DNA from: Proteiniphilum propionicum
Lineage (GTDB): Bacteria > Bacteroidota > Bacteroidia > Bacteroidales > Dysgonomonadaceae
Assembly (NCBI RefSeq): GCF_022267555.1
Contig: NZ_CP073586.1
Location: forward strand, 3,204,501 to 3,268,500
Reading direction: 5' to 3'
DNA: 64,000 nt
Shown: positions 21,897-52,924 of the stretch, one piece after another
Position numbering within the stretch: the first letter of the stretch is position 1
Layout: each line of letters begins with the position of its first letter
The notes under the pieces: model-generated
What the model saw: the letters and a program-made list of their open reading frames with translations, nothing else
Told to the model about the DNA's origin: nothing
The model's database searches: none
Made by a program: the position numbers and the translations under genes

Positions 21897-23504
21897 TTGT
21901 TTACTGTGAAATATCCCCTGCTGGCCATATTGATCTTTTTTCTTCCTAGCTCCTTATTTAGCTTAGAAAATAAATCCGATTCATTACTTAAGGAGTTGGA
22001 TAAGATCATATTGAAACGTTCTGACTTTTTGGAGATGAAAGAAGCCGGAATTTTAGCACTTAAACAAAAAAAGCTACAACTCAGAGAACCGGCAGATATC
22101 GTTGATATTAACTGGGAGATCATCAATCAGTACAATAGTTTCATTTGCGACTCTGCTGAATTTTATATCAAAGAGAATCTGAATATTGGCAAACAATTAG
22201 ATAAAGAAGAGATTATTACCGAATCCCTACTACAGCTTTCATATGTCTATTCACTCTCGGGCCTTTTTTTTCAAGCAGCGGAAATTTTCGAGTCAATGGA
22301 GTATGAACATCTTCCCAATCATTACAAAGCATGGTATTGTTGGAATTATATCCGGTACTTTGAGAATCTGATTGTCTATATCGATGATTCGAGATATTCT
22401 TATCCCTATGAGGTAAAGAAGGAAAAATGGAGAGACAGGGTGATGAATCTCCTAAGTGACCAATCGGAAGAGTATAGAAAAGAACTTACCCATAAGTTAC
22501 AATTGTCCGGTCAGTTTCCTGCAGCAGAGGAAATATTGTATTCAATTTTCTGGCACCAGCAACCCCACACACACCAATATGCCATGGCGGCCATGAATCT
22601 GGCAAAACATTACGCAAAGACCAATGAAACAGAAAAAGAAACCTACTATTTAATTATAGCGGCTATTTCAGACATAGAGCTGGCTGTGAAAGAGAATGAA
22701 GCGCTATTGTCTCTTGCTGTAAAACTATACCATAAAGGAGATGTGGACAGAGCATATAATTACATCAGGGTGGCCCTGGATGATGCCCTTTTCTACAATG
22801 CACGGTTTAAGAATTCGGTCATAGCACGCATACAACCCATTATTGAGGATACTTATTTACAGAAGATACATTCTCAACAAAAGAATTTAACACTATATTC
22901 AATCGCTACAAGCCTTTTTGTGATTTTTCTCATTATCACCTTATCCTATCTGTATATTCAGATTAAAGCAGTTTCGAGAGCAAAAAAAGAGCTCAGGGTG
23001 ATGAACGATGACCTTATTCAACTGAATAGAAAGTTGGATGAAGCTAATATCGTGAAAGAACACTACATTGGATACTTTATGAATCAATGTTCCGTATATA
23101 TCAACAAGCTTCACAAATATCGAAAAAATGTAAATCTGAACATCAAGACTGGTCAAATGGGAAATTTACACAAGTTCTCCGCTGATGAAATGGAGTATGA
23201 TATCAACGAACTGCACACGAATTTCGACAAAACCTTTTTGTCGCTCTATCCTAATTTTGTAACAGAATTCAACTCTTTACTCAGATCCAATGAACAGTAT
23301 AATCTCGATCGGGATGAATTAAACAATGAACTTCGCATATTTGCCCTCATAAAGTTGGGGATTATTGACGTAAAACAGATTGCCGAATTTCTGCACTATT
23401 CCGTACAGACGGTATACAATTATAAAAGTAAAGTAAAGGCAAAAGCATTGGTAGAAAGCGATCTATTCGAAGAAGAGGTAATTAAAATCGGAATCATCAA
23501 GTAA
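21897..23504 (+). CDS. DUF6377-type membrane-bound transcriptional regulator of the PUL
   Basis: 535 residues in the layout seen in Bacteroidetes DUF6377 regulators: signal peptide (about 1-20), helical TPR-like sensor region (about 30-320), one transmembrane helix (LYSIATSLFVIFLIITLSYLY, about 330-352), coiled coil (about 355-390) and a C-terminal helix-turn-helix (IAEFLHYSVQTVYNYKSKVK). Such proteins sit beside sus-like loci and are thought to sense the glycan in the periplasm and act on DNA. No ATG is available: an in-frame stop at 21879 limits the start to TTG 21897 or GTG 21906. The IS30 element ends about 90 bp upstream and may have altered its promoter. Convergent with the GH2 gene. 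Confidence 0.8.
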   Translation: MFTVKYPLLAILIFFLPSSLFSLENKSDSLLKELDKIILKRSDFLEMKEAGILALKQKKLQLREPADIVDINWEIINQYNSFICDSAEFYIKENLNIGKQLDKEEIITESLLQLSYVYSLSGLFFQAAEIFESMEYEHLPNHYKAWYCWNYIRYFENLIVYIDDSRYSYPYEVKKEKWRDRVMNLLSDQSEEYRKELTHKLQLSGQFPAAEEILYSIFWHQQPHTHQYAMAAMNLAKHYAKTNETEKETYYLIIAAISDIELAVKENEALLSLAVKLYHKGDVDRAYNYIRVALDDALFYNARFKNSVIARIQPIIEDTYLQKIHSQQKNLTLYSIATSLFVIFLIITLSYLYIQIKAVSRAKKELRVMNDDLIQLNRKLDEANIVKEHYIGYFMNQCSVYINKLHKYRKNVNLNIKTGQMGNLHKFSADEMEYDINELHTNFDKTFLSLYPNFVTEFNSLLRSNEQYNLDRDELNNELRIFALIKLGIIDVKQIAEFLHYSVQTVYNYKSKVKAKALVESDLFEEEVIKIGIIK

Positions 23505-23597
23505 GTAGTACACATTCGTGATAATCCTACAACTTATGCTTCCGATTTTAATTTGTCTTTCTAAAGCTTGGTGAAGACCTGATATCAACAAGCATTG

Positions 23598-26500
23598 TTA
23601 TTTATAACCCAGCGATAACACTTTTTTTTCCTTTTGATTATACTGTTTATGAAGAAGGGTAATTCCGTTTTTACAAAGTTCGGTATCGGCTTCAATGGTT
23701 ATCAGTTTCATTTCACCCGGCATCAAGGTGATGTAATTCTCATTCATGATTACAGGCAAAATTCGCTCCCCGGTTATGCTATCCACCAATCTCAGCCGGT
23801 TACCGAAAGCAACAGTAGGGGAATTGTTTTTCACTTGTAGATAGATCATCTCCGTATCCTCACTCTTATTGTAGCGATGCTCCGCAACACGGACAGATAA
23901 ATTTGCTTCTGGCAGCTCATCGAGATCCCTATAGTCCAATTCATTGACTCCATTTCTCCAATAGAAATTCTCAGATATCAGCCTGCCTGCTGCATCATTC
24001 AACTCAAGACGCACAAAATGCAAAGGAGTCAGGTCATCCAACTGTTTGTTTTCTCCATACACCTCGAACTCATAGATGGAATATCCAAATTCTGTTCCGC
24101 GTTTCAGTCCATTCATCCGTATATAACGTGCTTTAACCGGCTTGAAGATAATTTCATCGGTATTGCCACTGCCGTCTCTTATCTCTGCGACTGTTTTCCA
24201 TTTCTCAGCATCATTTGAAACCTGAATTTCATATTGTTTAGCGTAAGCATCTTCCCATTTCAGTTCCACTTTCTGCACTTTCTTCATTTCTCCGAGATCT
24301 ACCTGAATCCATTCAAAATCGCTATAATCACTCTCCCAGCGGCTTCCTGCGCACCCGTCGGCCGCAAGCCCAGCTGAACCGATGGTCGTTTCAGAAGACG
24401 CCTTAATTTTTTTTCCTCGCGCAAGGTTGGATGGATTGAAGTTCAATGTAAAAGCCTCTTGGAAATTGGCAGAAGGGACATTCAAAACCACTGAATCTCC
24501 ATAAAGTGGCATCTCTTCACCTTGTAGGGTAAAGATGCGGGCTGTGGCAGTAACATTCTCTAAATTAGCTGAAGATGAATTGATTACTTTCACGCTATTG
24601 CTGGAAGCGTTCCATTGTATATGAAACGGTTCGCACGCTTTTTTGGCACCCCAGTAAGCTCCCGAAGCGTCATGGTAATAATCATAAGTCTGCCATACAA
24701 AGGATGGGTATGCCGACTGGCTCATCCAAATCAGTATCCCGGTGGCATCATTCCACATTTTATCATTCCAGGCTTCATACATTCCTTTCATCACCTCGAT
24801 ATTCAGGAACTGCGCTTTTTCACAAAAGGCTTCCAGGTTGTCCGATTCACCAAACTGCTCATTCACTGCTTTCTTGTAGTTGATAGGGTTGGCATTGGAA
24901 GCCGATTTTCCAAAAAAATGACAGTCCCATACATTCTCCTCATCCTCTTCCAGTTGCTTGTCGGTTGGCAATGGCCAGAGCTGGTCTTCCGGGATAAACC
25001 GCCTTACACTCTCGTAGACGGGAAATGTAGCTGTGCCTATCTCGGATCGCAAACCATAGCCCCGATCCGAACCGTATGGATAGGGGGGATTGTTCCAGGC
25101 CAGATTGCTTCCTGAATTTTCGAAATGGCGCTTGGGAGGCTGATTACCCCACCATCCGCTACCCGACAGGCCATCCTGGTTGGAAGAAGACTTATACATC
25201 CTGTCGTTATGATCTTCCGAACCTATAATTCCTCTGAGGTAATTATCCAGTTCCGGTGCTGGATGTGTTTCATTGGCACCACACCACAGGGCAATGGAGG
25301 GGTGATTTCTAAGACGCTTCACTTTGTCCAGAGCGTTCAGCTTAAAATGTTCCGCATTCTCTACTTCGTTATAGGCTACATAGAGCCAGAAGTCGTCCCA
25401 GACCATGATCCCATACTTATCACAATATTCATAAAACTGGTCATCGGTTACACAGCCCGTCCACAAACGGATCATGTTATAGTTCATATCCTTGTGCATC
25501 CGGATCTTCTGTTCATACTCTTTGACATTTGTTCGGAGCAAATATTCACTCATACCCCAATTACCTCCTTTCAGAAAGAGCTTCTGTCCGTTGATGTAAA
25601 AAGTCATTACAGGCCATCCGGCGGCATTCTGTTCAAATCGATAATCATATTTCCGAATGCCAAAAGTAATCTTACGCGTATCGGTCACCACGCCCTCCAC
25701 TTTGCAGGTAACATGACAGTTGTATAGATTAGGCTCTCCATAACCATTCGGCCACCATAGGGCAGGATTCTTCACAATCAGCTCTTCAAATTGCTTTCGA
25801 TTAAGATACACCATTCCTGCTTCTCCAGCTTGCAGACCAATATTTTTAGAAACCGAAATGTTACCAGGCTGAACCGTGATGGTTACGGTCACATCTTTCT
25901 TCATATTCGAACAGTTCTTCAAAGCGGTCTGAAAAGAAAGATCGGCTATCTCGTTGGACTCGAGTTCCGACCTGATCCAGGGATCCTCCATCACGACATC
26001 CCCTGTTACTTCAAGGTATACATTCCCGGTAATGCCATGCAATCTTCCAGGTACATAGGGCATCCAATCCCATCCCGCAGCGGACAGATAGGTGGGGCTG
26101 GCGGTTATACCGAATCCATCCTTTGCGTCACGGGTCTTTTTCTGATTGGCGTCATAGATTAAAACTGCGATTGCGTTTTTTCCTGTTTTGCTGATCAAAT
26201 CTGTTACATCAAACTTTGAACGGAGCATGTGCCCGCTCACATCTTTAATGGACAACTCTGTACCGGAAATTTTCACACCGTTAAAATAAAAATCTGCATA
26301 CCGGTTAATATTATCAAAATGAAGCCAGACACGCTCTCCTTCTTTAGGGTACGGCGGCAGGGCAAACTCGGTTCTGTACCAGAATGGACGGTTGTAAAAA
26401 GTTTCATCTACTCGATAGATGTTGTCTCCATAATTTGGGTCCTTTTCCAGTCCGGCTTCCACATAGGCAGTAAAAACAACTCCCGGTACTACCCCTTTCA

Positions 26501-26690
26501 CCTCATTTTTAGCAACGTATCCGGCCTCAGAAATTTCGTATCCGGATACTTCAACTTCTGCCTGCGGCATTAATTTCCAAGTGATGTCGGGATTGGAACT
26601 GTTTAAGGAAACTCTCTTGTTCTGTGCAGGGGAATAAGTAAACAAGCACAACAGTGACATCATCACCATGCCAAATTTCAATCTATTCAT
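23598..26690 (-). CDS. Glycoside hydrolase family 2 enzyme with discoidin (F5/8 type C) domain
   Basis: 1030-residue secreted protein, signal peptide ending about YSPAQ (residue 23). GH2 sandwich, Ig-like and TIM-barrel domains follow. The catalytic acid/base is in WCGANETHP (about residue 475) and the likely nucleophile Glu in LRSEIGTA (about 565). Near 810-920 there is a F5/8C carbohydrate-binding domain (SSETTIGSAGLAADGCAGSRWESDYSDFEWIQVDLG is its typical layout). The barrel resembles exo-beta-D-glucosaminidase and beta-mannosidase members; the substrate cannot be fixed here. In a mannan or N-glycan context a beta-mannosidase or beta-N-acyl/glucosaminidase role is plausible. Last gene of the PUL run. 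Confidence 0.88.
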   Translation of the reverse strand: MNRLKFGMVMMSLLCLFTYSPAQNKRVSLNSSNPDITWKLMPQAEVEVSGYEISEAGYVAKNEVKGVVPGVVFTAYVEAGLEKDPNYGDNIYRVDETFYNRPFWYRTEFALPPYPKEGERVWLHFDNINRYADFYFNGVKISGTELSIKDVSGHMLRSKFDVTDLISKTGKNAIAVLIYDANQKKTRDAKDGFGITASPTYLSAAGWDWMPYVPGRLHGITGNVYLEVTGDVVMEDPWIRSELESNEIADLSFQTALKNCSNMKKDVTVTITVQPGNISVSKNIGLQAGEAGMVYLNRKQFEELIVKNPALWWPNGYGEPNLYNCHVTCKVEGVVTDTRKITFGIRKYDYRFEQNAAGWPVMTFYINGQKLFLKGGNWGMSEYLLRTNVKEYEQKIRMHKDMNYNMIRLWTGCVTDDQFYEYCDKYGIMVWDDFWLYVAYNEVENAEHFKLNALDKVKRLRNHPSIALWCGANETHPAPELDNYLRGIIGSEDHNDRMYKSSSNQDGLSGSGWWGNQPPKRHFENSGSNLAWNNPPYPYGSDRGYGLRSEIGTATFPVYESVRRFIPEDQLWPLPTDKQLEEDEENVWDCHFFGKSASNANPINYKKAVNEQFGESDNLEAFCEKAQFLNIEVMKGMYEAWNDKMWNDATGILIWMSQSAYPSFVWQTYDYYHDASGAYWGAKKACEPFHIQWNASSNSVKVINSSSANLENVTATARIFTLQGEEMPLYGDSVVLNVPSANFQEAFTLNFNPSNLARGKKIKASSETTIGSAGLAADGCAGSRWESDYSDFEWIQVDLGEMKKVQKVELKWEDAYAKQYEIQVSNDAEKWKTVAEIRDGSGNTDEIIFKPVKARYIRMNGLKRGTEFGYSIYEFEVYGENKQLDDLTPLHFVRLELNDAAGRLISENFYWRNGVNELDYRDLDELPEANLSVRVAEHRYNKSEDTEMIYLQVKNNSPTVAFGNRLRLVDSITGERILPVIMNENYITLMPGEMKLITIEADTELCKNGITLLHKQYNQKEKKVLSLGYK

Positions 26691-26788
26691 ATCAAATTAA
26701 GTAAAAAAAATGTTTCTTCAGGGCTCATGAACACTGAAGCATAAAACCTACATTATTGTGGACTGGAGAAGGTGGCGGAATCAGCGAG

Positions 26789-29065
26789 CTATTTATCCGT
26801 TGAGACTGAATAGGGACGATCCTCCATGCGTGTTCCCCTTTCCTTGTTGGGGGTGTTGCTCATCACCAATTTCAACTTTCCGCCATTCACAATATCAGCA
26901 TACGCAATCCAGTTTTTAGTGTATGCGACCCCGTTCAATTCAGCATAGGTGATGTATACGTTATCGGGACTGTTGTTTTCGGCTTCGATAACAAACTGTT
27001 TGCCGTCTTCCAGGGTAAGAGTCACCTTCTTGAACATGGGACTGCCCAGTACATACTGATCGCTTCCGGGACAAACACTGTATATCCCCATGGCACTCAA
27101 TACATACCAGGAAGAGAGTCCACCCTGATCTTCATCACCTGGATAACCCTGAGGAGAAGAATTGTACAACTGCGACATCACTTTACGCACCTGCGCCTGT
27201 GATTTCCATGGTTCTCCCGAAAAATTATACAGATAAGGTACATGTTGGCAAGGTTGGTTTCCATGTGCGTACTGCCCCATATTGGCTGCAAGCATCTCCT
27301 TAATCTCGTGGATGACCTCAAAATAAGCACCTTTGTCGTATTCATTTGTGCCATGAAAAAATGAATCAAGACGTGCATTGAACGAATCTTCTCCACCCAT
27401 GAGACTAATCAACCCCTCTATATCATGGAACACAGACCATGAGTATTGAGCGGAATTTCCTTCGGTAAAGGGATTGCCCCACCTGTAAGGGTTGAAATCT
27501 TCAAAAGCCCAACCGCCATCCAGTTTTCTGCCACGCATATACTTTGTTTCAGGATCCCACATGTTTTGATAATGATAAATCAACTCACCGAATATTTCTT
27601 CATATTTCTTGTTTCCTGTCATCTTCGCCAGGTGATACGCACACCAGTCGTCATACGCATATTCCAACGTTTTGGCAGCACTTTCTCCGGTTATTTCATA
27701 GGGGATATACCCTCTTTCAAAATAGTATTCATGGCCTTCGCGTCCACTGGATCCCTTCCAAAAGCTCACATGGGTAATCTCATGATGGTACTGTTCCAAT
27801 ACTTTCGCAGGATCGAAGTTACGGATCCCTTTTGCCCAAGCATCCGTCAGCAGGGAAATGGCATGATTGCCGATCATGATACCCGACATCCCGGGACAAG
27901 ACCAGGCAGGAAAGAATCCACATTGTTCTTTCGCGTCCACCAACGACTGCATATAACGCCCTAGCATGGAGGGATGCAGGATATTGGTCAATGGGAACTG
28001 AGAACGGAAGGTATCCCAGAAACCATTATCGGTGTACATATATCCGTCATGGACGTTAAAATCGTAGGGACTTCTGTAATAAGCTTCACCCTCTTCATCG
28101 ATTTCATAAAAGGTGTGGGAAAATAAATTGGAGCGAAACAGACAGGAGTAGAAAGTTGCTTTATCCTCTTCACTATCACCTTCCACTTTTACCCTGTTCA
28201 GCAGATCATTCCACAGTTTTCCAGCAGCTCTGCTCACCTCCTCCAGTTTGTCGAAATTACCCAATTCCTGTCTTAGCGTCAGCTCAGCCTGTTCCGGACT
28301 GATATAGGACATCGCTATCTTCACCTGGACGGTAGCACCATCGGCAAATGCAAGATACGCTCCTTTACCCTCTCCTTCATCTGAAAGTTTGTGGGGATCG
28401 ATCTGGTTTGTGCGATTATCCCAGGTACCGTGCGACAGAAATGGCTGATCAAAAGTAATTACAAAATAGCCTTTCATCTCCTGTGGAAAAAGAAAACCAC
28501 TGTTTACCCATCCAACTATTTTATTTTCTTCCGGAATGATGGTCACACCGCTTCTGCCGATATAACCATCCAGCACGAGGAAGGTTTTTTCCTTTTCCGG
28601 GAAAGTGAAACGCATCATGCCACCGCGCTTAACCGGTGAAATCTCCACTTTTACGCTGTTGTCCAGTTGCACGACATAATAGTGAGGTTGGGCTGTTTCA
28701 TGGTCATGTGAAAAGCCTGTGGCTCGTTCATCCTCATGCACAGTGAGCTTGCCTGTTTGCGGCATCAAGGAAATCGTAGCATAGTCCCTCACCCATGGGC
28801 TGCATTGATGCGTCAACTGAAATCCCCTGATGGTGGTCGCTTCATACTGGTATTTCCATCCATCGCCGTTTTTGCCGGTTTGCGGAGAAAAGGCATGCAT
28901 GGGATATGGCACGGCCACAGTGGGATAGGTATTTCCATAACTATAATCCGGTCGTGAATCCGTCCCCTGCAAGGTATTCACATATCGAACCAGATTTTCC
29001 TGTCCCGTTTTACACGAAAGGGTGAATATTCCTACAATCAGAACAATCATTACAATCTTTCTCAT
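26789..29065 (-). CDS. GH92 alpha-mannosidase, lipoprotein
   Basis: 758 residues. Lipobox TLSC at Cys18 implies a surface or periplasm-facing lipoprotein. GH92 enzymes are calcium-dependent exo-alpha-mannosidases, mostly alpha-1,2 or alpha-1,3/1,4. Hallmarks: VRYVNTLQGTDS at the mature N-terminus, the long N-terminal beta-sandwich, and the catalytic (alpha/alpha)6 domain with GDEDQGGLSSWYVLSAMGIYSVCPG. Second of two consecutive GH92 genes, 137 bp after the other. The two copies differ clearly and likely cleave different linkages. Confidence 0.95.
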   Translation of the reverse strand: MRKIVMIVLIVGIFTLSCKTGQENLVRYVNTLQGTDSRPDYSYGNTYPTVAVPYPMHAFSPQTGKNGDGWKYQYEATTIRGFQLTHQCSPWVRDYATISLMPQTGKLTVHEDERATGFSHDHETAQPHYYVVQLDNSVKVEISPVKRGGMMRFTFPEKEKTFLVLDGYIGRSGVTIIPEENKIVGWVNSGFLFPQEMKGYFVITFDQPFLSHGTWDNRTNQIDPHKLSDEGEGKGAYLAFADGATVQVKIAMSYISPEQAELTLRQELGNFDKLEEVSRAAGKLWNDLLNRVKVEGDSEEDKATFYSCLFRSNLFSHTFYEIDEEGEAYYRSPYDFNVHDGYMYTDNGFWDTFRSQFPLTNILHPSMLGRYMQSLVDAKEQCGFFPAWSCPGMSGIMIGNHAISLLTDAWAKGIRNFDPAKVLEQYHHEITHVSFWKGSSGREGHEYYFERGYIPYEITGESAAKTLEYAYDDWCAYHLAKMTGNKKYEEIFGELIYHYQNMWDPETKYMRGRKLDGGWAFEDFNPYRWGNPFTEGNSAQYSWSVFHDIEGLISLMGGEDSFNARLDSFFHGTNEYDKGAYFEVIHEIKEMLAANMGQYAHGNQPCQHVPYLYNFSGEPWKSQAQVRKVMSQLYNSSPQGYPGDEDQGGLSSWYVLSAMGIYSVCPGSDQYVLGSPMFKKVTLTLEDGKQFVIEAENNSPDNVYITYAELNGVAYTKNWIAYADIVNGGKLKLVMSNTPNKERGTRMEDRPYSVSTDK

Positions 29066-29202: not shown

Positions 29203-31575
29203 TCATACTCCCCAATTCATATTGGGTTCGGGGCCCATTTCCAGTTTCAGTTCTCCTCCCGAGATGATCTCATCGTAATGCAGCCAGCATCTCTCAAGTG
29301 GCACACCGTTCAGACTTGCCTGCTGAATATACACATTCTTTTCAGAATTATTGGTTGCAATGATCCGAAAGCTCTTCCCTGTAGCAAATTTTCCATCCAG
29401 TTGAATTTCTATTTCCTCGAATATAGGGCTGGTTATCTCATACCGCAGGTCTCCAGGGCAAGCCTGATGCAAGCCTACAGCCGATAAAACATACCAGGCC
29501 GACATCTGTCCCACATCTTCATTCCCGACCAACCCATCCACCCGGTTTCTGTAGGCACGGTGACAAATCTCCCGGGTCCACTTCTGCGTCAGCCAGGGAG
29601 AACCCAAACGGTTAAAAAGATAGGGGACGAAATGTACCGGCTCATTGGCATGGTTATAATAGTCGTTCCACATCATGTCATCGGGTACATTCTCAAAGAA
29701 ACTGATCAGGTCGGGCAAGACTTTTTCTATGCCCCCCATCAGGTCAACCATCCCCTCCACATCGTGCGGCACGAACCAACCCTGTTGATAGGGGTTACTT
29801 TCAACCGTGCCGTAGCTCTCTTCCAGTCTACCTTTCACCGGCCATTCAGCCCACGTTCCGTCTTCGTTTCTGGGCCGGAACCAACCCATCTGCGCATCAA
29901 ATACATTCCTGTAGCTTCGGGAGAGAGACAGATACTTTTCCTGATCCTCCTTGTGATCCATCATCCCGGCTAACCGCGACATGCACCACTCGGTATAACT
30001 CAGCTCCAGCGTATTGGATATGGAGAAGTTTCCTGTTGCGTAACCGGCACTCCCCGAATCAACAGCATCGCTCCGCACGGCAAAACCCAGCTTTTCATTT
30101 CCACTTCGTTCTGATGTGCGAAGGGCCAGCTCATATGCTTTTTGGATGTCATAACCCCTGATTCCTTTTGCATAGGCGTCGGTCAGTACCGATATGGCCG
30201 GATTGCCTATCATACAGGCACTATAAGCATTCATCAGTTCCCACCGTTCAAGATAACCTTTGCCACTCTCCTCAGCCAGTGTAATGAGCGATTGAAGCAT
30301 ATCATTCACGACAGTGGGGTTGATGAGAGTCTGCAATGGAAACTGACTGCGGAATACATCCCAACCGCTAAATACAGTCCGCTTTGTAAAATCGACTGAC
30401 GTATGAACCTCCTGATCGCCTCCACGGTACTGTTTATCCACATCTTCATAGGTCCTTGGATCGATCATCGTATGATAGAGAGCGGTGTAAAAAACTTTTT
30501 TCTGCTCATCGCTTCCGCCGCTAATTTTAATCTTAGCAAGAGAATCGTTCCATTTTATATATGCATCCTTCCTTACTCGGTCGAAATCCCAGTCGGGTAT
30601 CTCCTCCTCGAGGTTCCGCCTTGCACCTTCCTGATCCACAAACGAAATACCTACCTTCATCGACACCCGGTCTCCTTCCTTTGTAGGAAATTCGGTAAAA
30701 AAGCCCAGATGTTTTCCCTGCCCTTCCGCGATGTTTCTTTTAATTCCAGCTTCTGCAATGATCTGTTGATATCCGGGACTGGTCACATCTTCCAGCTTTC
30801 GTGTCTGGTCATCCGGAATGGCAGCACTCCAGATGCCATAGTCCCGAAGTGGTTTTTCGAATTGTGCATAAAAAAAGAGCGTATAATCCGATTTTCCATC
30901 GCCATTTCCCCATCCTCCTCCTTCGGGTGGACATTTCATCCAGCCGGAAATCGTGTGTTTATCTACCACCTTCACCTGCTGCTCTGTAGAGGTACCTCCC
31001 ACACGACGCGCCAGGTCGATCTGTATTCTTGATTTTTCGTTTTCGGGAAAGGTGAACCGATACATGCCACAACGCTGCGTAGCCGTCATTTCTGCCATAA
31101 TATGATAGTCGTCCAACAGGACGGAATAGTAGCCGGCTTTTGCCTTTTCATTTTCGTTGGTGTAGCGGGAACGGTATCCGCTATCAGGATTCTCTTCCGT
31201 GCCCGCACTTGTCTTAAGATCACCCGTTGAAGGCATGACAAGAAAGTTGCCCATATCTCCATTCCAGCCAATACCACTCAGCTGGGTCATGGCAAACCCT
31301 TCAATGGTCTGGTGTTCGTAGCTGTAGCCTGAGCCGTTGTCACCACCAGTAATTGTGTTGGGACTAACTTGTACCATGCCAAAGGGCGTGGTTGCACCCG
31401 GGAATGTTTTTCCCAAGCCATGATAAACGCCTGCTGCATCGATGCTGGTACTAGCTCCGATAAACGGATTCACATAGATAGCATAATCACTGCCCTTCTC
31501 CATGTGATTACCTATACACCCCTGCAACAACAGGAGTAATACAGGTAAAAAAGATAGTTTGTCTGTCATTGTCAA
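29203..31575 (-). CDS. GH92 alpha-mannosidase, lipoprotein (second copy)
   Basis: 790 residues, lipobox LQGC at Cys20. Family hallmarks: YVNPFIGAST near the N-terminus, GYSYEHQTIEGFAMTQLSGIG, and VGNEDVGQMSAWYVLSAVGLHQACPG in the catalytic domain, the counterpart of the GDEDQGG block of its neighbour. Gln-to-Val beside the conserved Asp is a visible difference between the two copies. Starts 36 bp after the GH38 stop, so it is in the same transcript. Confidence 0.95.
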   Translation of the reverse strand: MTMTDKLSFLPVLLLLLQGCIGNHMEKGSDYAIYVNPFIGASTSIDAAGVYHGLGKTFPGATTPFGMVQVSPNTITGGDNGSGYSYEHQTIEGFAMTQLSGIGWNGDMGNFLVMPSTGDLKTSAGTEENPDSGYRSRYTNENEKAKAGYYSVLLDDYHIMAEMTATQRCGMYRFTFPENEKSRIQIDLARRVGGTSTEQQVKVVDKHTISGWMKCPPEGGGWGNGDGKSDYTLFFYAQFEKPLRDYGIWSAAIPDDQTRKLEDVTSPGYQQIIAEAGIKRNIAEGQGKHLGFFTEFPTKEGDRVSMKVGISFVDQEGARRNLEEEIPDWDFDRVRKDAYIKWNDSLAKIKISGGSDEQKKVFYTALYHTMIDPRTYEDVDKQYRGGDQEVHTSVDFTKRTVFSGWDVFRSQFPLQTLINPTVVNDMLQSLITLAEESGKGYLERWELMNAYSACMIGNPAISVLTDAYAKGIRGYDIQKAYELALRTSERSGNEKLGFAVRSDAVDSGSAGYATGNFSISNTLELSYTEWCMSRLAGMMDHKEDQEKYLSLSRSYRNVFDAQMGWFRPRNEDGTWAEWPVKGRLEESYGTVESNPYQQGWFVPHDVEGMVDLMGGIEKVLPDLISFFENVPDDMMWNDYYNHANEPVHFVPYLFNRLGSPWLTQKWTREICHRAYRNRVDGLVGNEDVGQMSAWYVLSAVGLHQACPGDLRYEITSPIFEEIEIQLDGKFATGKSFRIIATNNSEKNVYIQQASLNGVPLERCWLHYDEIISGGELKLEMGPEPNMNWGV

Positions 31576-44160: not shown

Positions 44161-44192
44161 ACAAATAATTTTAGTTTTTAAACAATGATGAA

Positions 44193-45257: not shown

Positions 45258-45272
45258 CAGATTATCTCCTTT

Positions 45273-45728
45273 TTATTGTTGATCTGTTCTGTTAAATACA
45301 TAAGTATAAACGTTGCTGAAACAGCCAGGACTAAGGTCAATAGAGAGTGAACGCTTTCCGTTTACAATCATATATTCAATTTCAACGTTTACTTCCTCCG
45401 AGCTTCCCCCTTCTTCCTCAAATATCAGGTGAAAAGGGTAAAGAGGATCGTCCACTTGCCATCTCCCGTTATTTTTTACCACAAAAGGCAGGTAGTTTTC
45501 AATCACATAGTTTCCATTTTCTTTCAGTTCGAGGCTGAATTTGGAAAAGTCCATCAGTCCGGTAATATCAATTCCGTTGCGTGTTACTTTTTCCAGCTTC
45601 CAGATCCCGCTCAAGTCCTTGTGAGTTTCTTCATACACGTCGCTCTCCGTCGCACTAAATTTGTTACATGCATTCAACACGATCATGGAGAGCAGCACAA
45701 AAGCCACTTTTATTATCTTGTTTTTCAT
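45273..45728 (-). CDS. DUF5004-type small lipoprotein
   Basis: 151 residues, lipobox LNAC at Cys21, then a single lipocalin-like beta domain (LSGIWKLEKVTRNGIDITGLMDFSKF... NNGRWQVDDPLYPFHLIF), the layout of DUF5004. It sits 15 bp before the DUF4961 gene and 31 bp after the SusD gene, a known pairing of DUF5004 and DUF4961 in Bacteroidetes glycan loci. Molecular role unknown; probably an outer-membrane-associated accessory. Confidence 0.7.
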   Translation of the reverse strand: MKNKIIKVAFVLLSMIVLNACNKFSATESDVYEETHKDLSGIWKLEKVTRNGIDITGLMDFSKFSLELKENGNYVIENYLPFVVKNNGRWQVDDPLYPFHLIFEEEGGSSEEVNVEIEYMIVNGKRSLSIDLSPGCFSNVYTYVFNRTDQQ

Positions 45729-45759: not shown

Positions 45760-47592
45760 TTAATCATAAAAAGGATTCTGTAACAAATCTGGCGATTTTA
45801 CTGTCTCCTGATAGGGGATAGGCCAAAAGTACATACCCTGACGGAATACATGTTTTCTCACATCAAACTCACGCCAGGTTTTATTACCATTTGCTTCTCT
45901 GGTAATTTCCATTCCACGCATCATGACATTGTCTGTCTGCTCTGCGATCTTCCAGCGACGCACGTCGAAGAATCGGAAACCCTCAAATGCAAGTTCCAGA
46001 CGACGTTCCAGACGAATAGCATCTCTCATCTCCTCCTTGCTCATATGGGATTTAAGACCATACATTCCATCTTCACCCGCTTGGATACCAGCGCGTTTTC
46101 GAATGAGTTTCAAGGCTGTATAGACACTCATCTCCTGTTCACCAAGGAACTCAGTATAATCAGGGCCAAAAAACTCGTTGGCCGCTTCGGCATAGTTAAG
46201 TAATATCTCTGCATATCTTATCAGAGGACGATTCTGTGGCGGCTCGAGCCAATAATTGGCAGAAGCATTCCGATGAATCATTTTGCGGATATAATACCCG
46301 GTGGGAGTCCCGCTGTGCACCGCATCCTGCGTAGCCCCCCTACCCTGACGGGTGTATACAATATGATCTGCATTGCCTCCGCTGTAAACCTTACAACTGT
46401 CATAGATCACCGTATTTGCGAACCGGGGATCTCTGTTCAGGTTGGGCCGCAACGGATTGTAGGGATATGCACTTTCACCTATCGGCTTACCGTCAATCAT
46501 CGGAAAGGCATTGGCAAGATCACCGTATACATAACCAGCATCGCCGCCACCGCCGCATGAAGGAGGATCCAGAAAAGACATCACCGTGACACCATGACGA
46601 TCTTTTTTCTCGAAAATCAATTCGCAATAGGCTCCCATATCAAATGTCTGCCCTTCGTATTGCGTAATATTATTAAAATCGGGCGGAAAGAAGATCGCGT
46701 AAAATCCAAATCCCGGTTCATATTCCTTGCGATCATTCAAATGATAATCAAACAATCGGAAGTTACCGCTCATCGTCAGCATATTCCTTGCCGCGTCGAG
46801 TGCCAGTTTCCACCTGTTCTCATCGTAGGTGGGATAACCCAGCAGTTCTTTTGTATCTTCGGTACCAAATCCGCTCCCGTTGTATAAAGGACTGGCTGCA
46901 TATAACAAGACACGGGATATCAGGCTCCTGCAAACAGCTTCGCTCACCCTTCCATTGTTACGACCCCTTGTGCGTGGTTGCAGGGTATGTGATTTCAGGA
47001 CTGCTTCGGCCTCTGTTACAATGTAATCCACACACTCGGCAAAAGTGTTGCGACTGGTTTTCATTTCATCCTCCGCACCATAGACCTCATCTCCAATCAA
47101 CGGTATCCCTCCGTAGTGACGTAAAAGGATAAAATAATACCATGCCCTGAGCGCTCTGGCTTCCGATTTATACTGTTGTTTTGTGGATTCAATAATCGGC
47201 GCTCCGTCAACTTTTTTCAAAAAAACATTCGCCCGACGGATGTTCCGGTAACATTTTTCCCAGACATCTGCCGTGACCGTCACAGGATTGATGGTTCCGG
47301 TAGCAAACATCATCCCGGTGGAAATGGCATTCGACTGAACAAACTCAGCTTCGTCGCTGGCAACCTGCAACCCTCCTCCTTTCGTACCCCAGCCATTGAA
47401 GCGGTTGAGGTCGGTATCAAATCCTACATCCACATAGATCTGGGTTAGAAAACCGGCGGTATACGCACTGTCGGAAAAGACTTTGTTCTCATCCAAATCT
47501 GTCGTTTGGGTCTGATCCAGAAAGTCATTGTTGCAAGAGGCCAGACTCCAGACAAAAAAAAGGAATAAAGTAAATTTCAAAGAATTCTTCAT
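45760..47592 (-). CDS. SusD/RagB-family glycan-binding lipoprotein (second)
   Basis: 610 residues, lipobox LASC at Cys20. Family blocks: YKSEARALRAWYYFILLRHYGGIPLI (about 140-165), IRYAEILLNYAEAANEF (about 470), LAFEGFRFFDVRRWKIAEQT, and QGMYFWPIPYQETVKSPDLLQNP at the end. It leads the SusD-DUF5004-DUF4961-SusC segment, 110 bp after the SGNH gene. That gap holds a 13-bp tandem repeat and could contain an extra promoter. Confidence 0.94.
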   Translation of the reverse strand: MKNSLKFTLFLFFVWSLASCNNDFLDQTQTTDLDENKVFSDSAYTAGFLTQIYVDVGFDTDLNRFNGWGTKGGGLQVASDEAEFVQSNAISTGMMFATGTINPVTVTADVWEKCYRNIRRANVFLKKVDGAPIIESTKQQYKSEARALRAWYYFILLRHYGGIPLIGDEVYGAEDEMKTSRNTFAECVDYIVTEAEAVLKSHTLQPRTRGRNNGRVSEAVCRSLISRVLLYAASPLYNGSGFGTEDTKELLGYPTYDENRWKLALDAARNMLTMSGNFRLFDYHLNDRKEYEPGFGFYAIFFPPDFNNITQYEGQTFDMGAYCELIFEKKDRHGVTVMSFLDPPSCGGGGDAGYVYGDLANAFPMIDGKPIGESAYPYNPLRPNLNRDPRFANTVIYDSCKVYSGGNADHIVYTRQGRGATQDAVHSGTPTGYYIRKMIHRNASANYWLEPPQNRPLIRYAEILLNYAEAANEFFGPDYTEFLGEQEMSVYTALKLIRKRAGIQAGEDGMYGLKSHMSKEEMRDAIRLERRLELAFEGFRFFDVRRWKIAEQTDNVMMRGMEITREANGNKTWREFDVRKHVFRQGMYFWPIPYQETVKSPDLLQNPFYD

Positions 47593-47637
47593 AGTAAACC
47601 ATTATTCAAATAAATACTCATTTTTTTAAGACTCTAT

Positions 47638-47676
47638 TTTTTTATGTATATTTTTTATGTATATTTTTTATGTTGA
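47638..47676. repeat. 13-bp tandem repeat upstream of the second SusD gene
   Basis: TTTTTTATGTATA occurs at 47638-47650 and 47651-47663, followed by a third copy diverging at the end (TTTTTTATGTTGA, 47664-47676). Located between the SGNH stop and the SusD start, 46-84 bp ahead of the SusD start codon. AT-rich repeats of this kind may vary in copy number. Confidence 0.8.
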
Positions 47677-47702
47677 CAGAATGCATCGATTAAATTCATG
47701 TG

Positions 47703-49076
47703 TCAGAGTTTGATCAGTTCAACCTTCAATGCTTCAGGTCTATTTTCGCGGTATATCTGATCGGTCAGATGCTGTTGTTCTTCGATGGTATTTTTACGAA
47801 CACTTTCACTCCTTAAATGAAGCCAGTATTTATGGTTCCAGTTCACAAACGGATCAATCTCTCGGTATTTAAGGAGCGTATCCACAGCCGCTTCATCTCC
47901 TTTCCACAACATTCCTGTTCTACGCATCAAATGATATTCCATCCAGTAATACTCTCTCATTTCCCTTTCCATCAACCAGCGCTGCTCGTTCAACCTGGCT
48001 ATTTTCTGTGCTCTCTCGTATTGCGGGGTATTTCCATAAGAAGCCAGGTTGATTCCCCGTCTTAACTGGTATGCCGTAAAACGGGCAATCTCCTTTCCTC
48101 CAATTTTTAGCAAGTAGTATCCATCTGGTAACCCTGCTACAGTCAATACTTCCTGGTTCAGCTCCTCCATAAATGGAATCACCTTCAAGCCATCAGCCTG
48201 ATTGTGCAATTCATTGTCATAATAGGATGAATCGATAGGAAAAGGAAGTGATTTTGCCAGATAAGTAAAACAAATATTTTGTGCAGAAACAGAAAGATCT
48301 GAAACAGTACAATTCACTGCATGCGTAATGGCTTTCCCTGCAGCATAGATGGAAATATCAGCGACCGGATTACCAGCCAGACCCTGTGCTCTTAGGAAAA
48401 GATAAGCCATGACCAGATGACCGTCTGTGGAAGGATGAATGCGATCACGTCCGCACAAAGTGAAGGTAGAATCAAACTGTTGTTCCCGTTGATTGATTGC
48501 GACCATGGGACGGTTGAAATCAATAAAATACCATTGATTATCCGCAGCTCGCTTCGCCAGATAATCTGAGATATCCGCAATCAGATTGTTTTTCCCAGGA
48601 AAAGGGACTTTATTCAGTTTTGAAGTTTCATCATACGGTGAACTACCAATCAGTATTTTTTTTACGCGCGGTTGTTTTTTCAGGATCTTCTCCATCTGTT
48701 GATAATGATTCAGGGAGGTTTTTACATTTCTCTCTCCGATTGTATCATTTCCAGGAAGCGTAAAATCCATATACCCCACATCGTTCATCCCAAAAGTGAG
48801 GGTCACAATGGTGGGACGATGCTCAAACACTTTATCCATTCTCTGTGACATTTGTTGTACCACATCACCACCGATCCCTTCATTAAAGATATCGATCCGC
48901 ATTCCCGGAAAATGGGTCATATAATAAAGCCAGATATAAGAGTGATAACGACCACCGCAGGTGATGCTGTTTCCTATAAAAGCAACCCGTTCGCCCTCTT
49001 TGAAAACGGGAATACTTTGTGCGCTCATATGAAGGGCGACTGACAGCAGATAAATAACGACTACAATTTTTTTCAT
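47703..49076 (-). CDS. Secreted SGNH/GDSL-family hydrolase
   Basis: 457 residues, signal peptide to about MSAQ (residue 20). SGNH blocks are clear: block I FIGNSIT with the nucleophile Ser (about 37), block II NEGIGGD, block III TFGMNDVG, and block V DRIHPSTDGH with Asp and His (about 205-212). This marks a carbohydrate esterase or acetylesterase-like enzyme. The C-terminal half (about 240-457) is an additional domain with a helical end. Within the PUL it probably removes ester groups from the glycan. Confidence 0.88.
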   Translation of the reverse strand: MKKIVVVIYLLSVALHMSAQSIPVFKEGERVAFIGNSITCGGRYHSYIWLYYMTHFPGMRIDIFNEGIGGDVVQQMSQRMDKVFEHRPTIVTLTFGMNDVGYMDFTLPGNDTIGERNVKTSLNHYQQMEKILKKQPRVKKILIGSSPYDETSKLNKVPFPGKNNLIADISDYLAKRAADNQWYFIDFNRPMVAINQREQQFDSTFTLCGRDRIHPSTDGHLVMAYLFLRAQGLAGNPVADISIYAAGKAITHAVNCTVSDLSVSAQNICFTYLAKSLPFPIDSSYYDNELHNQADGLKVIPFMEELNQEVLTVAGLPDGYYLLKIGGKEIARFTAYQLRRGINLASYGNTPQYERAQKIARLNEQRWLMEREMREYYWMEYHLMRRTGMLWKGDEAAVDTLLKYREIDPFVNWNHKYWLHLRSESVRKNTIEEQQHLTDQIYRENRPEALKVELIKL

Positions 49077-49109
49077 TCTATAATTGATATAAATGAGATA
49101 ATTTCTTTT

Positions 49110-51779
49110 CTAATTCAAACCCGGCTGCGGCAACACAAACTCTACATCGTATGTGCCACTTTTCAGAAAGAGGTCGCCCTCCAAAGAAAGTTCATCCTCA
49201 TTCAGTGTCCCTTTTTGTGTATGTTTGGGTACAAGAACTGTAGCCTCCACTCCCGCGGGCAACAAGAAGTGCATCCGTTGCACGTTGTCTTTCACTTCCC
49301 ATTTCAGGATGATGGTCCCGTAGGGAGTCTCCTTGGTCGTATGCGCCCATGTCACTCCTTCGGGGATCTGCGGCTCAATAAAAACATGCTGATAACCAGG
49401 GTACTGCTCATCGGGGCGGATTCCTCCCACAGCCTGGTAGAACCAACTACCAATACCGTTGTAGCAATTATGAACCCTGCTGCGTTCACCGCTCCAGTAT
49501 TCCCAGGTGGTGGTGGCATTGTTTTGGAGCATGTAGAGATAACCGGGATAATCCCGCTGCTTTAACATGTCATACATAAAATCTGCTTCCCTGTTCCGGA
49601 TTGTCCATTCAGTTAGAATGGGCACTCCAACCAATCCGGCTGCAATATGACCCTTGTGCTGCTCCTTGGTCCGGGAAATCAACTGATCTCTCACTTTTCC
49701 GATCAACTCCTCTGGCACTGCTCCCACCAGCATGGGATAGGACATATCGAGCTGCGATCCTGTGGCATAGATATTCATTTCGGCATCGAAGAATGTTTGA
49801 TGAATCAACTTGTTCAGTACAGCGCTTTTATCGGCAAAAAGCTGTGCCTCATCCGGCTTATCAAGTTGTAAGGCAATCTTCTCCAGTGTTTGCAAACACT
49901 CGCTGATAAAACAGTTGTTCACCAGATCAATGGAAGACTGAGCACCGGTATCCACTCCGTATGGAGCAAGCCAGTCCCCCAGATACCAGTCACGGTAGGG
50001 GGTATCCGGCCAGCGTTTTAACAAGCCCTCCACGGTATATTTATCCACATAGCTCATCCACTGTTTCATTGCATCGTAGTAGAGCTCCAGGGGACGGGGA
50101 TCGCCATAGTTGACAAAAGTCCGCCAGGGAGCCAGCACCATGAATCCGCACCAATAAGGTCCCCCACCTCCTGCACCGGGATTTGGCGCCACATGAGGCA
50201 AGCTGCCTCCCTCACGCATTACATCTTTCCAGCTCTGTAACCAGTTCATATAGGTGGGCGATACATCAAACATCGTCTGGAGCGCTTGTGTTGATGAGTT
50301 CCCGTCGCCGCCGTAACCGGTGCGCTCCAGATGGGGACAATCCACCATATAACCGCTAAATGTGAGACAACGCAGGGTATAATTGACCATGTCATGAATA
50401 GCATTCAGCTCATTGTCGGAACATCTGAACGTTGCCGCCGGCTGATAATCACCGTGTATCAGATATGCTTTTATCTGACTGGAAGTGGGCCTCTCCGGCA
50501 GATTGGCAATCTTGGCATAACGGAAAGCGTGATGGTTGAATTTATTTCGAAACAGATCCCCTTCCCTGCCGGAAGCAATGTATAGATCCCGTTCACCCTG
50601 CTCTTCAATTTGACCCTCTTTGGTCATGAAATCGCTGTATGTAACTACGATCTCGTGTCCTGCATTGAGTGCAGGAACCGACAGTTCGAACCATCCCGTC
50701 ACCATTTTTCCCATATCTACGAGCCAGGTATCGTTGCCCAATGCTTCGATACTCTTTGGGGAAAGTACCTCCTGTATCCTGTTGGTTTCACACATTTGAG
50801 ATGAAACCTGATGAGGCGTAATGGCCATCACTTTTGCCGGCTCCCATTTCAATCTATCCAGGTTCTCGGATGTCAAACAAGCCGGAAGAAGTCGACCGTC
50901 TATTCTTTCTCCTCCGAACTGCAGGGCCTGCCATGTTCCAGTGTCTGCGTATCCGCTCGCGCGACCGCTCCAGAAAGCATCTGTCGCCACAATCTGTCGC
51001 CATTTCCCCTGCTGCAGGGTACACATTTCGGCTCTTACTACCGGTCCGTCGTGTTCAGCTCCGAAAGTTGTCTTCTTATACCATCCCTGTCCGAGCCATA
51101 GCACGATTTCGTTTTTTCCCTGCTGCAGATAAGAGGTCACGTCATAGGTAACCACCAACGAACGTTTATTTAACTGCGATACGGCAGGCGATAACACATC
51201 CTCTCCTACTTTTTTCCCGTTGATGTATATTTCGTGATAACCCAAAGAATTGACATGCAAGAATGTGACACCTCGTTCGTTGACAACAAATGATTTTCTC
51301 AGGAGAGGCGATCTGACATCTCCCCCACCCAATCCAATATATGCTCCCTTCAGATAATCCTTCGCTACGATACCCACAGCAAAACGTTGCACAGGGCTCC
51401 AATCAGAAGTTTTCCCATGCTCATCCCATACGCGTACCCTCCAATAGCAAAGCAAGCGGGATCTCAAGGAGGCTCCCTGATAGGGAACCATCACCGAGGC
51501 GGATGAGTGAATGCGGGTATTCCACAAATCGGCTTTCCCTTTATCAAACAGCACACTATCTGTAGCGACCTGAATTTCAAAGGATTGTTGCCTCGCGATG
51601 GAATCCCCTTTTAATTTCCAACTGAAGTGTGGCGCCAGGTTATCTATGCCTATTGGATTTATGAGGTTCTCACAACGCAGATCCACAAGACTGATCGGCT
51701 TGGCAATCAAAAAATAGAAATTGCAAAAAGCGCATAAAAGAAACAAGATACTTTTCCGCATGATACTAAATTTTTTCAT
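49110..51779 (-). CDS. GH78 alpha-L-rhamnosidase, secreted
   Basis: 889 residues with an N-terminal signal segment (MKKFSIMRKSILFLLCAFCNFYFLIA). Domain order: Fn3-like (SLVDLRCENLINPIGIDN, about 29-130), Bac_rhamnosid_N (about 165-300), beta sandwich, (alpha/alpha)6 GH78 barrel (about 440-780), and C-terminal Bac_rhamnosid_C (VGGIRPDEQYPGYQHVFIEP). The catalytic motif, usually DCPQRxERxGWxGD, reads DCPHLERTGYGGDG (about 480), one residue shorter with Tyr for Trp but with the Glu retained. ATG at 51779 overlaps the GH130 stop as ATGA, so translation is coupled. Confidence 0.9.
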   Translation of the reverse strand: MKKFSIMRKSILFLLCAFCNFYFLIAKPISLVDLRCENLINPIGIDNLAPHFSWKLKGDSIARQQSFEIQVATDSVLFDKGKADLWNTRIHSSASVMVPYQGASLRSRLLCYWRVRVWDEHGKTSDWSPVQRFAVGIVAKDYLKGAYIGLGGGDVRSPLLRKSFVVNERGVTFLHVNSLGYHEIYINGKKVGEDVLSPAVSQLNKRSLVVTYDVTSYLQQGKNEIVLWLGQGWYKKTTFGAEHDGPVVRAEMCTLQQGKWRQIVATDAFWSGRASGYADTGTWQALQFGGERIDGRLLPACLTSENLDRLKWEPAKVMAITPHQVSSQMCETNRIQEVLSPKSIEALGNDTWLVDMGKMVTGWFELSVPALNAGHEIVVTYSDFMTKEGQIEEQGERDLYIASGREGDLFRNKFNHHAFRYAKIANLPERPTSSQIKAYLIHGDYQPAATFRCSDNELNAIHDMVNYTLRCLTFSGYMVDCPHLERTGYGGDGNSSTQALQTMFDVSPTYMNWLQSWKDVMREGGSLPHVAPNPGAGGGGPYWCGFMVLAPWRTFVNYGDPRPLELYYDAMKQWMSYVDKYTVEGLLKRWPDTPYRDWYLGDWLAPYGVDTGAQSSIDLVNNCFISECLQTLEKIALQLDKPDEAQLFADKSAVLNKLIHQTFFDAEMNIYATGSQLDMSYPMLVGAVPEELIGKVRDQLISRTKEQHKGHIAAGLVGVPILTEWTIRNREADFMYDMLKQRDYPGYLYMLQNNATTTWEYWSGERSRVHNCYNGIGSWFYQAVGGIRPDEQYPGYQHVFIEPQIPEGVTWAHTTKETPYGTIILKWEVKDNVQRMHFLLPAGVEATVLVPKHTQKGTLNEDELSLEGDLFLKSGTYDVEFVLPQPGLN

Positions 51780-52924
51780 TGTTGTGTGGACGGGTCATAT
51801 ACGGCCACTGCCACTTTTGAATCGGCACATCCATAATAAAGAAACCATTTTTGTTGAAAATAGACCAACCCTTCAATAAAGACTGTTCCGGCAGGATATT
51901 GTCCGCTCTTCTCAAACTCTTCTTCGGGAAACAGAAAAGGTTTATCCAGTCGTGTAATCAATTTTTCAGGATCATTTTTATCGAATAGAGCCTGTCCGGC
52001 ACAGTATGCATTCGGTGCATATTGGTGATCACCCTCTCCTTCTTTGTTCTTTCCATTATACAACAGAATAATACCCTCTTCCGTCCAAATGGCAGGAGGT
52101 CCGCATTCAGTCAGATCACTGTCGAAACAACCCTTTCTGGGTGACATCAAGACCGCCAGTTCATTGTCTTCATTCAGAATGGGCGTCCAGTTGAGCAGGT
52201 CGGTAGATGTAGCACCATAAATCACATACTCGCCCCAATACATGAAGTAATGTCCATTTATCTTTTTGATGACCTGTCGATCATTCTTCAGGCAGGTCAG
52301 GATGCTGGATGCTTTTGACCACTCATTCAGGAAGCGGCCTTCGTATGCTTTAGCAAATGCAGGCCCCTGTTTTTCCCAGTGAATCAAGTCTGTAGAGGTA
52401 GCTACGCACAATCGGGCCGTTTTTCTGTCCCACGAAGTGTAAAAAAGCACAAAAGTACCCTCTTCGGTCACTGCTATACGGGGGTCCTCGCATCCTCCCG
52501 GCCATTCGTATGCTTTGTTCTGGTCGCTATCCGGGTAGATCACCGGAGCGTTCCTTTTATTCATTGTATATCCATCAGGGGATTCGGCCAATCCGATTCT
52601 TGAAACACGCGTACCTATACCCACCGATGAGTTGTCTTCTGCGCGGTACAAGAGATGTAGCTTTTCTCCTTTTACCACGACTCCAGGATTGAACACATCC
52701 CCTTTCTCCCAAAAAACATCGCTGTTATTCATTGGACAGTGAAACAGCGCTGTTGTGTCGGGAACAATGATTGGATTCACGTACCTGGGGCGGACAAATT
52801 CCCCCAGGGGAAAAGCAGGTTCATATTCCTGGTTGGAATGATTGCAGGAACAGAACAGGAGAACCAACGAAGTGATTCCGAGAATTGTTGTAACAAAAGG
52901 GGTACGATTATTTTTAAATTTCAT
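51776..52924 (-). CDS. GH130-type beta-mannosidase/mannoside phosphorylase, lipoprotein
   Basis: 382 residues, lipobox CSC at Cys27, then a five-bladed beta-propeller. GH130 blocks: KGDVFNPGVVVKGEKLHLLYRAED (about 75-97), GGCEDPRIAVTEEG (about 140-155), and WFLYYGCADSKVAVA near the end. The family includes phosphorylases and beta-1,2-mannosidases acting on mannosides. A secreted lipoprotein is unlikely to meet phosphate-driven cytoplasmic phosphorolysis, so hydrolysis of beta-mannosides (beta-1,2-type) is the better guess. First gene of the PUL transcript. Confidence 0.88.
   Translation of the reverse strand: MKFKNNRTPFVTTILGITSLVLLFCSCNHSNQEYEPAFPLGEFVRPRYVNPIIVPDTTALFHCPMNNSDVFWEKGDVFNPGVVVKGEKLHLLYRAEDNSSVGIGTRVSRIGLAESPDGYTMNKRNAPVIYPDSDQNKAYEWPGGCEDPRIAVTEEGTFVLFYTSWDRKTARLCVATSTDLIHWEKQGPAFAKAYEGRFLNEWSKASSILTCLKNDRQVIKKINGHYFMYWGEYVIYGATSTDLLNWTPILNEDNELAVLMSPRKGCFDSDLTECGPPAIWTEEGIILLYNGKNKEGEGDHQYAPNAYCAGQALFDKNDPEKLITRLDKPFLFPEEEFEKSGQYPAGTVFIEGLVYFQQKWFLYYGCADSKVAVAVYDPSTQQ

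Follow-up and report, generated by a model that had tools for sequence, protein, structure and literature searches.

A Proteiniphilum propionicum locus that looks built for a glycan with both mannose and rhamnose and encodes a GH38-like protein with an altered active site

Which glycan does a bacterium take up when several of its mannosidases are encoded beside an alpha-L-rhamnosidase? This question is raised by a stretch of 64,000 nucleotides from Proteiniphilum propionicum (the window; positions 3204501-3268500 of a single-contig 3.9-Mb genome), which contains a SusC/D-type polysaccharide utilization locus (PUL) of 14 co-directional minus-strand genes (23598-52924 of the window) spaced by -4 to 147 bp, together with a convergent DUF6377 gene. 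An earlier note on this DNA had described this close run as a PUL for a rhamnose-decorated mannan, and Pfam scans recovered all of the genes where it had placed them. The locus looks built for the import and dismantling of a glycan with both mannose and rhamnose. From the sequence comparisons below we lean, by a small degree, towards a short, branched, O-acylated glycoconjugate with alpha-mannose, some beta-1,2-mannose and alpha-L-rhamnose as its substrate. The most novel part of the locus is a GH38-like protein, here called GH38L. The genes are as follows, with the assignments made by Pfam unless stated.

21897-23504, plus strand: putative DUF6377 regulator (PF19904, 1.2e-78), converging on the GH2 gene
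23598-26690, minus strand: GH2 protein with F5/8 (CBM32-like) and Ig domains
26789-29065, minus strand: GH92a, predicted alpha-1,2-mannosidase (Pfam and BT3990 residue match), lipobox-like N-terminus
29203-31575, minus strand: GH92b, nearest to BT3130/BT3965, lipobox-like N-terminus
31612-34161, minus strand: GH38L, putative enzyme with an altered active site (Pfam and alignments)
34176-36095, minus strand: lipoprotein with a ricin-type lectin domain, a probable surface glycan-binding protein
36243-39317, minus strand: SusC2 TonB-dependent receptor
39322-41082, minus strand: SusD2
41095-44196, minus strand: SusC1 TonB-dependent receptor (Pfam and phmmer search)
44193-45257, minus strand: DUF4961 protein (PF16328, 5.1e-91), lipobox-like N-terminus
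45273-45728, minus strand: small DUF5004 protein (PF16395, 2.2e-16)
45760-47592, minus strand: SusD1
47703-49076, minus strand: SGNH/GDSL esterase with GNS, GMND and DRIH motifs
49110-51779, minus strand: GH78 alpha-L-rhamnosidase with five Pfam domains
51776-52924, minus strand: GH130, predicted beta-1,2-mannosidase of the hydrolase type (NF058598 and residue mapping), lipobox-like N-terminus

The GH130 protein scored 633.8 bits on the NCBIfam model NF058598 (BT3780 beta-1,2-mannosidase; cut-off 550) and retained nine of nine BT3780 residues (N74, R89, E141, D142, K199, E227, E268, Y302, D363) when mapped through the alignment with chain 5a7v, which we infer to be BT3780 because all nine residues fall into place at an offset of 4. 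K199, named as the likely beta-1,2 determinant, corresponds to K204 in the window protein, and GH130 hydrolases are marked by lost phosphate-binding residues in the same account, here drawn on in part (PMC4599007). GH92a carried an acid (E535) and a base (D646) 111 residues apart together with H586-E587, a spacing identical to that of BT3990 (acid E533, base D644, H584-E585 and +1 site W88; PMC5930347, PMC10167667); W91 is the likely counterpart of W88, placed by position only. These features are those of a BT3990-type alpha-1,2-mannosidase. GH92b matched BT3130 (423 bits) and BT3965 (408 bits) better than BT3990 (330 bits), and the BT3130/BT3965 clade is described as alpha-1,3-specific or mixed, except for BT3965 as an alpha-1,4-mannosidase (PMC5930347). 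The GH78 protein combined five rhamnosidase Pfam domains with the DCPxxER and TTWE motifs of an alpha-L-rhamnosidase. We take its DCPHLERTGYGGD (480) and ATTTWEYW (755), which carry these two motifs, to be the catalytic Glu motifs. The nearest PDB relatives of the GH2 protein were exo-beta-glucosaminidases and beta-mannosidases, and its WCGANE (469) and RSEIG (548) are presumably the candidate catalytic Glu motifs, as the GNS, GMND and DRIH of the esterase are presumably those of the SGNH/GDSL fold. Of the enzymes that the earlier note wanted compared with characterised members, GH130 and GH92a agree with beta-1,2- and alpha-1,2-mannoside specificity, and GH78 has its catalytic motifs.

No GH76, GH99, GH125, GH18, GH85 or PNGase Pfam match was found among the proteins of the locus, which agrees with the earlier note for the four families that it had listed (GH76, GH99, GH125 and GH18), and there was likewise no Pfam match to a glucuronidase or lyase. 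Since the locus is without GH76, GH99, GH125 or another classical endo-acting family, although the GH2 protein may itself be endo-acting, a mannan polymer is a poorer fit than a glycoconjugate that is short and branched. The mannan backbone proposed in the earlier note gained no support: rhamnomannan has a backbone of alpha-1,6-mannose in the part of the account used here (PMC8489378), and the locus has none of GH76, GH99 and GH125.

The locus belongs to a known general type, the SusC/D PUL with GH92 and GH130, in which susC and susD homologs lie next to each other and are linked to carbohydrate-active enzymes. SusC and SusD are each encoded twice, and beside them stand five GH genes from four families, a single GH38-like gene and an esterase gene. 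The claim of the earlier note that the locus differs from the PULs described for yeast mannan and for high-mannose N-glycans was upheld in a comparison with Bacteroides thetaiotaomicron. There we take BT3774 to be a GH38 enzyme, and BT3990 is presumably located in the high-mannose N-glycan PUL. In the portions of the accounts drawn on here, the yeast alpha-mannan PUL (BT3774, BT3780, GH92; PMC4599007, PMC10154615) has in common with the window locus a BT3780-type GH130, GH92, a GH38-related protein and SusC/D, but the window locus carries none of GH76, GH99 or GH125, by which such a PUL would be recognised, and has GH78, SGNH, GH2, DUF4961 and DUF5004 as well as a GH38 relative without the canonical catalytic Asp residues. 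The high-mannose N-glycan PUL (GH18 BT3987; PMC10154615) shares an alpha-1,2 GH92 with the BT3990 signature, whereas the window locus encodes no endoglycosidase of GH18 or GH85 and no PNGase, and has GH130, GH78 and an esterase. Marine Flavobacteriia mannose-rich PULs A and B also join GH92 to GH38, GH130 or GH2; type A is often sulfatase-rich and type B carries GH76, GH125 and others, neither of which applies to the window locus, and the term GH78 is missing from the main text of that account (PMC6298971). In the open-licence literature (titles and abstract starts, among the matches listed) no description was found of GH78 (or GH106) combined with GH130, GH92, SGNH and GH38L; rhamnomannan joined to "polysaccharide utilization" gave no match, and the only mention of DUF4961, DUF5004 or DUF6377 concerned iron deficiency.

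In the proposed route the SusD and lectin lipoproteins would capture the glycan for import via SusC, the SGNH esterase would take off acyl groups and GH78 would remove rhamnose. GH130 would release terminal beta-1,2-mannose and GH92a terminal alpha-1,2-mannose, after which GH92b and GH38L may act in succession on a core linkage; GH2 would cut an inner beta-glycoside. Freed rhamnose could be metabolised via the genome's own RhaA, an L-rhamnose isomerase being present (620.6 bits). Elsewhere in the genome there were three GH76 matches, one GH125 match and 14 GH92 matches (including fragments), so that the genome holds several alpha-mannoside systems, this PUL among them. A mannan PUL in partial decay may lie at G000:C1:2667590-2680150, where two GH76 matches stand close to one full GH92 and to GH92 fragments whose open frames are short (117 and 88 aa).

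The earlier note had listed GH38 among the families that act on mannosides. GH38L passed two Pfam GH38 cut-offs, with its middle domain under cut-off, and showed profile similarity to GH38 over most of its length (HHalign probability 100%). A joint alignment was made of 11 GH38L members, taken from matches in a genome-sample search, and canonical GH38 sequences from 12 of 17 loci (L033, L034, L035, L040 and L045 were left out). The Asp of the HxD motif was Gly in all 11 GH38L members and Asp in 12 of 12 canonical sequences. At the nucleophile column ten members had Glu and one Lys, with an invariant Glu adjoining, against Asp in all 12 canonical sequences, and Asp was found in none of the 11 at the Asp column of GDxGG, which from its spacing we infer to hold the acid/base. 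Both sets share the first His, and likewise the HD within QxHD. In SpGH38, as far as its account is drawn on here, zinc is bound by H13, D15, D125 and H351; D125 also serves as the nucleophile, and D232 is the acid/base (PMC2815779). GH38L is thus alike in profile, first His and QxHD HD, but has Gly at the zinc-ligand Asp of HxD and Glu (once Lys) at the nucleophile, and so lacks both the HxD zinc motif and the Asp nucleophile of a retaining zinc alpha-mannosidase. On this alignment GH38L is not to be counted as an ordinary alpha-mannosidase, and it is a candidate new enzyme subfamily. Among the sequences left out, L033, L034 and L045 showed the HxD motif and L035 and L040 did not, so its loss is not unique to the GH38L family; the latter two are 834-aa GH38-like open reading frames (ORFs), only distant relatives of the window protein.

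The alteration of all three positions could also mean that GH38L is catalytically dead, or a binding protein instead of an enzyme. We regard this as unlikely, since other acidic and His positions (D32, H35, H41, E145, D242, H345, H346, D347) were unchanged in all 11 members, and EEPCFT occurred in 77 of 78 GH38L ORFs of at least 700 aa (76 by pattern and EEPCFTA in L094, with L149 as the exception). GH38L was full-length in 12 of 393 sampled Bacteroidales genomes, its own included, with one further fragment. A scan of named genomes with the patterns DG[YF]HGG[VI][YFW]G and [SA]QHHD[CS]WI reported 337 relatives, of which the best 80 supplied the named loci used below and include metagenome-assembled genomes (MAGs) labelled Phycisphaerae, Verrucomicrobia and Pontiellaceae. 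Because these loci were found via the two peptide patterns, their ORFs were bound to be enriched in the HGG motif, a bias of which the 11-member alignment and the EEPCFT count are free. With rather more doubt than confidence, we propose GH38L as the type of an undescribed GH38-fold family, with a Glu-based altered metal site and acting on a linkage not found in GH38, that would form with GH92b and SGNH the core of a widespread PUL, fuller versions of which might import a rhamnosylated mannose glycoconjugate not known as a bacterial food.

The search for the same gene set in other Bacteroidales, suggested by the earlier note, was productive. G054, of the same genus, carried all fourteen genes and DUF6377 in identical order at 83-95% identity, and much of the set was found in more distant loci, so the gene set is more than chance. 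The gene-by-gene comparison covered the window and six related PULs that share its SusC1/SusC2 set and were chosen regardless of GH78 (G054, G006, G010, G015, G005, G129); G018 and G086 (short contigs), G163 (no SusC2 seen) and G496 (different SusC/D) were excluded. GH78 of the same clade stood on the GH38L contig in four of the six (G054, G006, G010, G015), was not seen in G005, and in G129 lay on another contig with an in-frame stop. GH130 was on the PUL contig in five of the six and was not seen in G010. Bacteroides xylanisolvens XB1A, B. faecis MAJ27 and a Paludibacter MAG were added because GH78 had already been seen there, and in all three the same clade accompanies GH38L. GH130 occurs with a GH106 alpha-L-rhamnosidase in B. 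xylanisolvens and Paludibacter (GH106 E 5.6e-209 and 6.9e-223), the Paludibacter locus also has a second GH78-like family, and the 40 kb examined from B. faecis showed no GH130. The B. xylanisolvens copy may be decayed or misassembled, as its GH2 is split between two ORFs, its SusC1 reaches only 538 aa, and no SusD1, DUF4961 or DUF5004 was seen. The Proteiniphilum MAG G496/L086 had GH130 and GH78 at 72-74% identity beside GH38L, GH92b, GH92a and GH2 with other SusC/D genes, and in Bacteroides L155 the same GH78 clade goes with GH38L, its SusC/D being other or unread. The related loci that pair GH78 with this set thus come from Dysgonomonas, Paludibacter, Proteiniphilum, B. xylanisolvens and B. 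faecis. DUF5005 proteins (L192:2917-4245 and L193:12516-13856) were noted within both Bacteroides PUL versions.

Among the 80 named loci, 59 had GH92b (at least 50% identity) and 50 had SGNH (at least 35%) no more than 10 kb from GH38L; in G464, GH92b and GH38L are fused in one 1636-aa ORF. Other esterases near GH38L were of the PF00756 type (20/80) and of two SASA types (9/80 and 6/80). Some rhamnosidase lay within 10 kb in 14 of the 80 loci (13 if a GH78 match of at least 45% identity is asked for), GH106 having been searched by blastp with two examples only, and nine of these rhamnosidase-bearing loci carry the second GH78-like family. Absence in these loci means not detected, because many of them are truncated, either where a contig stops or at the limit of the 10-kb flank. 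Rhamnose with mannose is a recurring theme across loci, yet an accessory one, given the 14 of 80. The glycan of rhamnose and mannose in the earlier note therefore stands in part: mannosidases occur beside GH78, the second GH78-like family or GH106 in other genera, but most GH38L loci show no such enzyme nearby. The second family was seen at L095:651-3008 and in eight further named loci, Mucilaginibacter and Desertivirga among them, with the shared motif DCPYYEQxQY(I/V)GDTR.

Among the 393 Bacteroidales genomes, GH38L was found in 13 (one a fragment), the GH78 clade in 15 and both in eight (Fisher p 6e-10); with the window's own genome removed, both were found in seven, of 12 with GH38L and 14 with GH78 (p 9e-9). 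The clade was defined by at least 45% identity over the full length, leaving out one partial 47% match (G436), and the counts are lower bounds, as scoring was limited to the top few candidates in a genome, mostly two, and the GH78 search had an E limit of 1e-150. When 17 GH38L genomes, some chosen because GH78 was known there, were searched with the window GH78, five had a full-length relative of at least 50% identity and the rest were at 36% or less; four of the five relatives were in or near the PUL, and that of G497 was on a contig other than that of GH38L.

Several results weigh against a substrate with mannose and rhamnose. In 66 of the 80 GH38L loci no rhamnosidase was detected within 10 kb, and the Fisher test takes neither kinship nor genome size into account. 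Both genes shared a contig in just two of the eight genomes (G000, G006) and were on different contigs in G129, G187, G288, G369, G433 and G455; no such PUL was found around GH78 on the G433 and G455 contigs examined. In ten sampled GH38L genomes outside the PUL comparison (G106, G163, G187, G204, G288, G369, G375, G433, G455, G464), several with short contigs, the GH78 clade was not seen beside GH38L, G163 carrying the second GH78-like family instead, and seven of the 15 genomes with the GH78 clade had no GH38L match. Sequence comparison also gave no single specificity for SGNH, GH2 or GH92b. Confidence is limited because part of the GH78 linkage comes from genomes picked for GH78 and because of the two same-contig cases in eight.

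One alternative is a PUL for N-glycans or yeast mannan that carries GH78 by chance, with a target free of rhamnose. GH92, GH130, GH2 and GH38 enzymes do act on these glycans in the part of the literature used here (PMC10154615), two GH20 genes lie about 5 kb off in the window, and most GH38L loci are without a detected rhamnosidase nearby. We nevertheless consider this highly improbable, as the locus has no GH18, GH85, PNGase, GH76, GH99 or GH125 match, GH78 is kept in four of the six PULs that were not picked for it with GH106 added in two others, and the GH20 genes are absent from the G054 flank. Fungal rhamnomannan, an example given in the earlier note, with its backbone cleaved by enzymes of other genome loci, would account for the recurrence of rhamnosidase and mannosidases side by side and for the GH76 and GH125 genes elsewhere in the genome, and the polymer does carry rhamnose on its mannose backbone (PMC8489378). 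It is disfavoured as the whole substrate because that backbone is alpha-1,6-mannose and the locus is without GH76, GH99 and GH125. None of these was found in the scanned neighbour ORFs of related loci either (not every ORF was scanned), and beta-1,2-mannose and ester groups are unmentioned in the portion of the account of the polymer used here (PMC8489378), which leaves rhamnomannan an improbable natural substrate.

The glycan could also be a bacterial polymer or glycoprotein, such as an O-antigen or exopolysaccharide of mannose and rhamnose or a Bacteroidota O-glycan, a proposal that overlaps with the short acylated glycoconjugate and only names its source. Bacterial O-antigens, exopolysaccharides and O-glycans can combine mannose and rhamnose, esterases and several rhamnosidase types recur among the loci, and the carriers include sludge, soil and gut organisms. 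Such a source is possible, though doubtful: the BT3780-type GH130 suggests a substrate with Man-beta-1,2-Man, which the part of the account drawn on describes from Candida mannan (PMC4599007), and a glucuronidase or lyase gave no Pfam match in the window locus. If the short, acylated mannose-rhamnose glycoconjugate is indeed the substrate, the gut species B. xylanisolvens and B. faecis would share with environmental Bacteroidota a dedicated route for its use that is apparently undescribed in the open-licence literature, and GH38L, as a conserved GH38-fold protein with a non-textbook active site, is directly testable by expression and mutation.

Among the remaining proteins of the locus, a crude lipobox pattern was matched by GH92a, GH92b, GH130, the lectin protein, DUF4961, SusD1 and SusC1, the match of SusC1 being taken as spurious. 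The lectin and propeller lipoprotein of the earlier note kept its lectin, through a RicinB_lectin_2 match, and lost its propeller, for which there was no Pfam match; a DUF5018-related match lay just under cut-off. A role of SusC1, DUF4961 and DUF5004 as a peptide importer, after the pattern of BT2261-2264, was rejected, as phmmer of SusC1 gave no recognisable chain of that kind and a PDB search with the DUF4961 protein, taken to E = 1, found no relative. DUF6377 is the probable regulator of the operon, and homologs of 48-66% were found near GH38L genes in Dysgonomonas, Bacteroides, Paludibacter and Tannerella loci. An extracytoplasmic function (ECF) sigma factor gene near GH38L (L103:9148-9672 and 11 other named loci, Bacteroides among them) is a possible second regulator, only the L103 copy having been Pfam-scanned. 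A window counterpart of the sigma gene of B. faecis was sought in a 224-aa ORF at 19928-20602 and dropped, as it had no Pfam match.

Outside the PUL, the two GH20 genes surround a CutC-family gene (57634-63484); they were tried as PUL members and rejected on their absence from the G054 flank. A hydrolase gene with two alpha/beta-hydrolase stretches (54910-56640) was also not seen beside the PUL in G054. Transposase-type genes occur at 5041-6231 (DUF772) and 20839-21798 (HTH_38 and rve), the latter directly preceding DUF6377, a position in which G054 showed no such gene. Finally, a histidine utilisation cluster (HAL, HutI, HutU) occupies 10549-17133, and in it the formiminotransferase (FTCD_N) and the cyclodeaminase (FTCD_C) are encoded by two separate genes.

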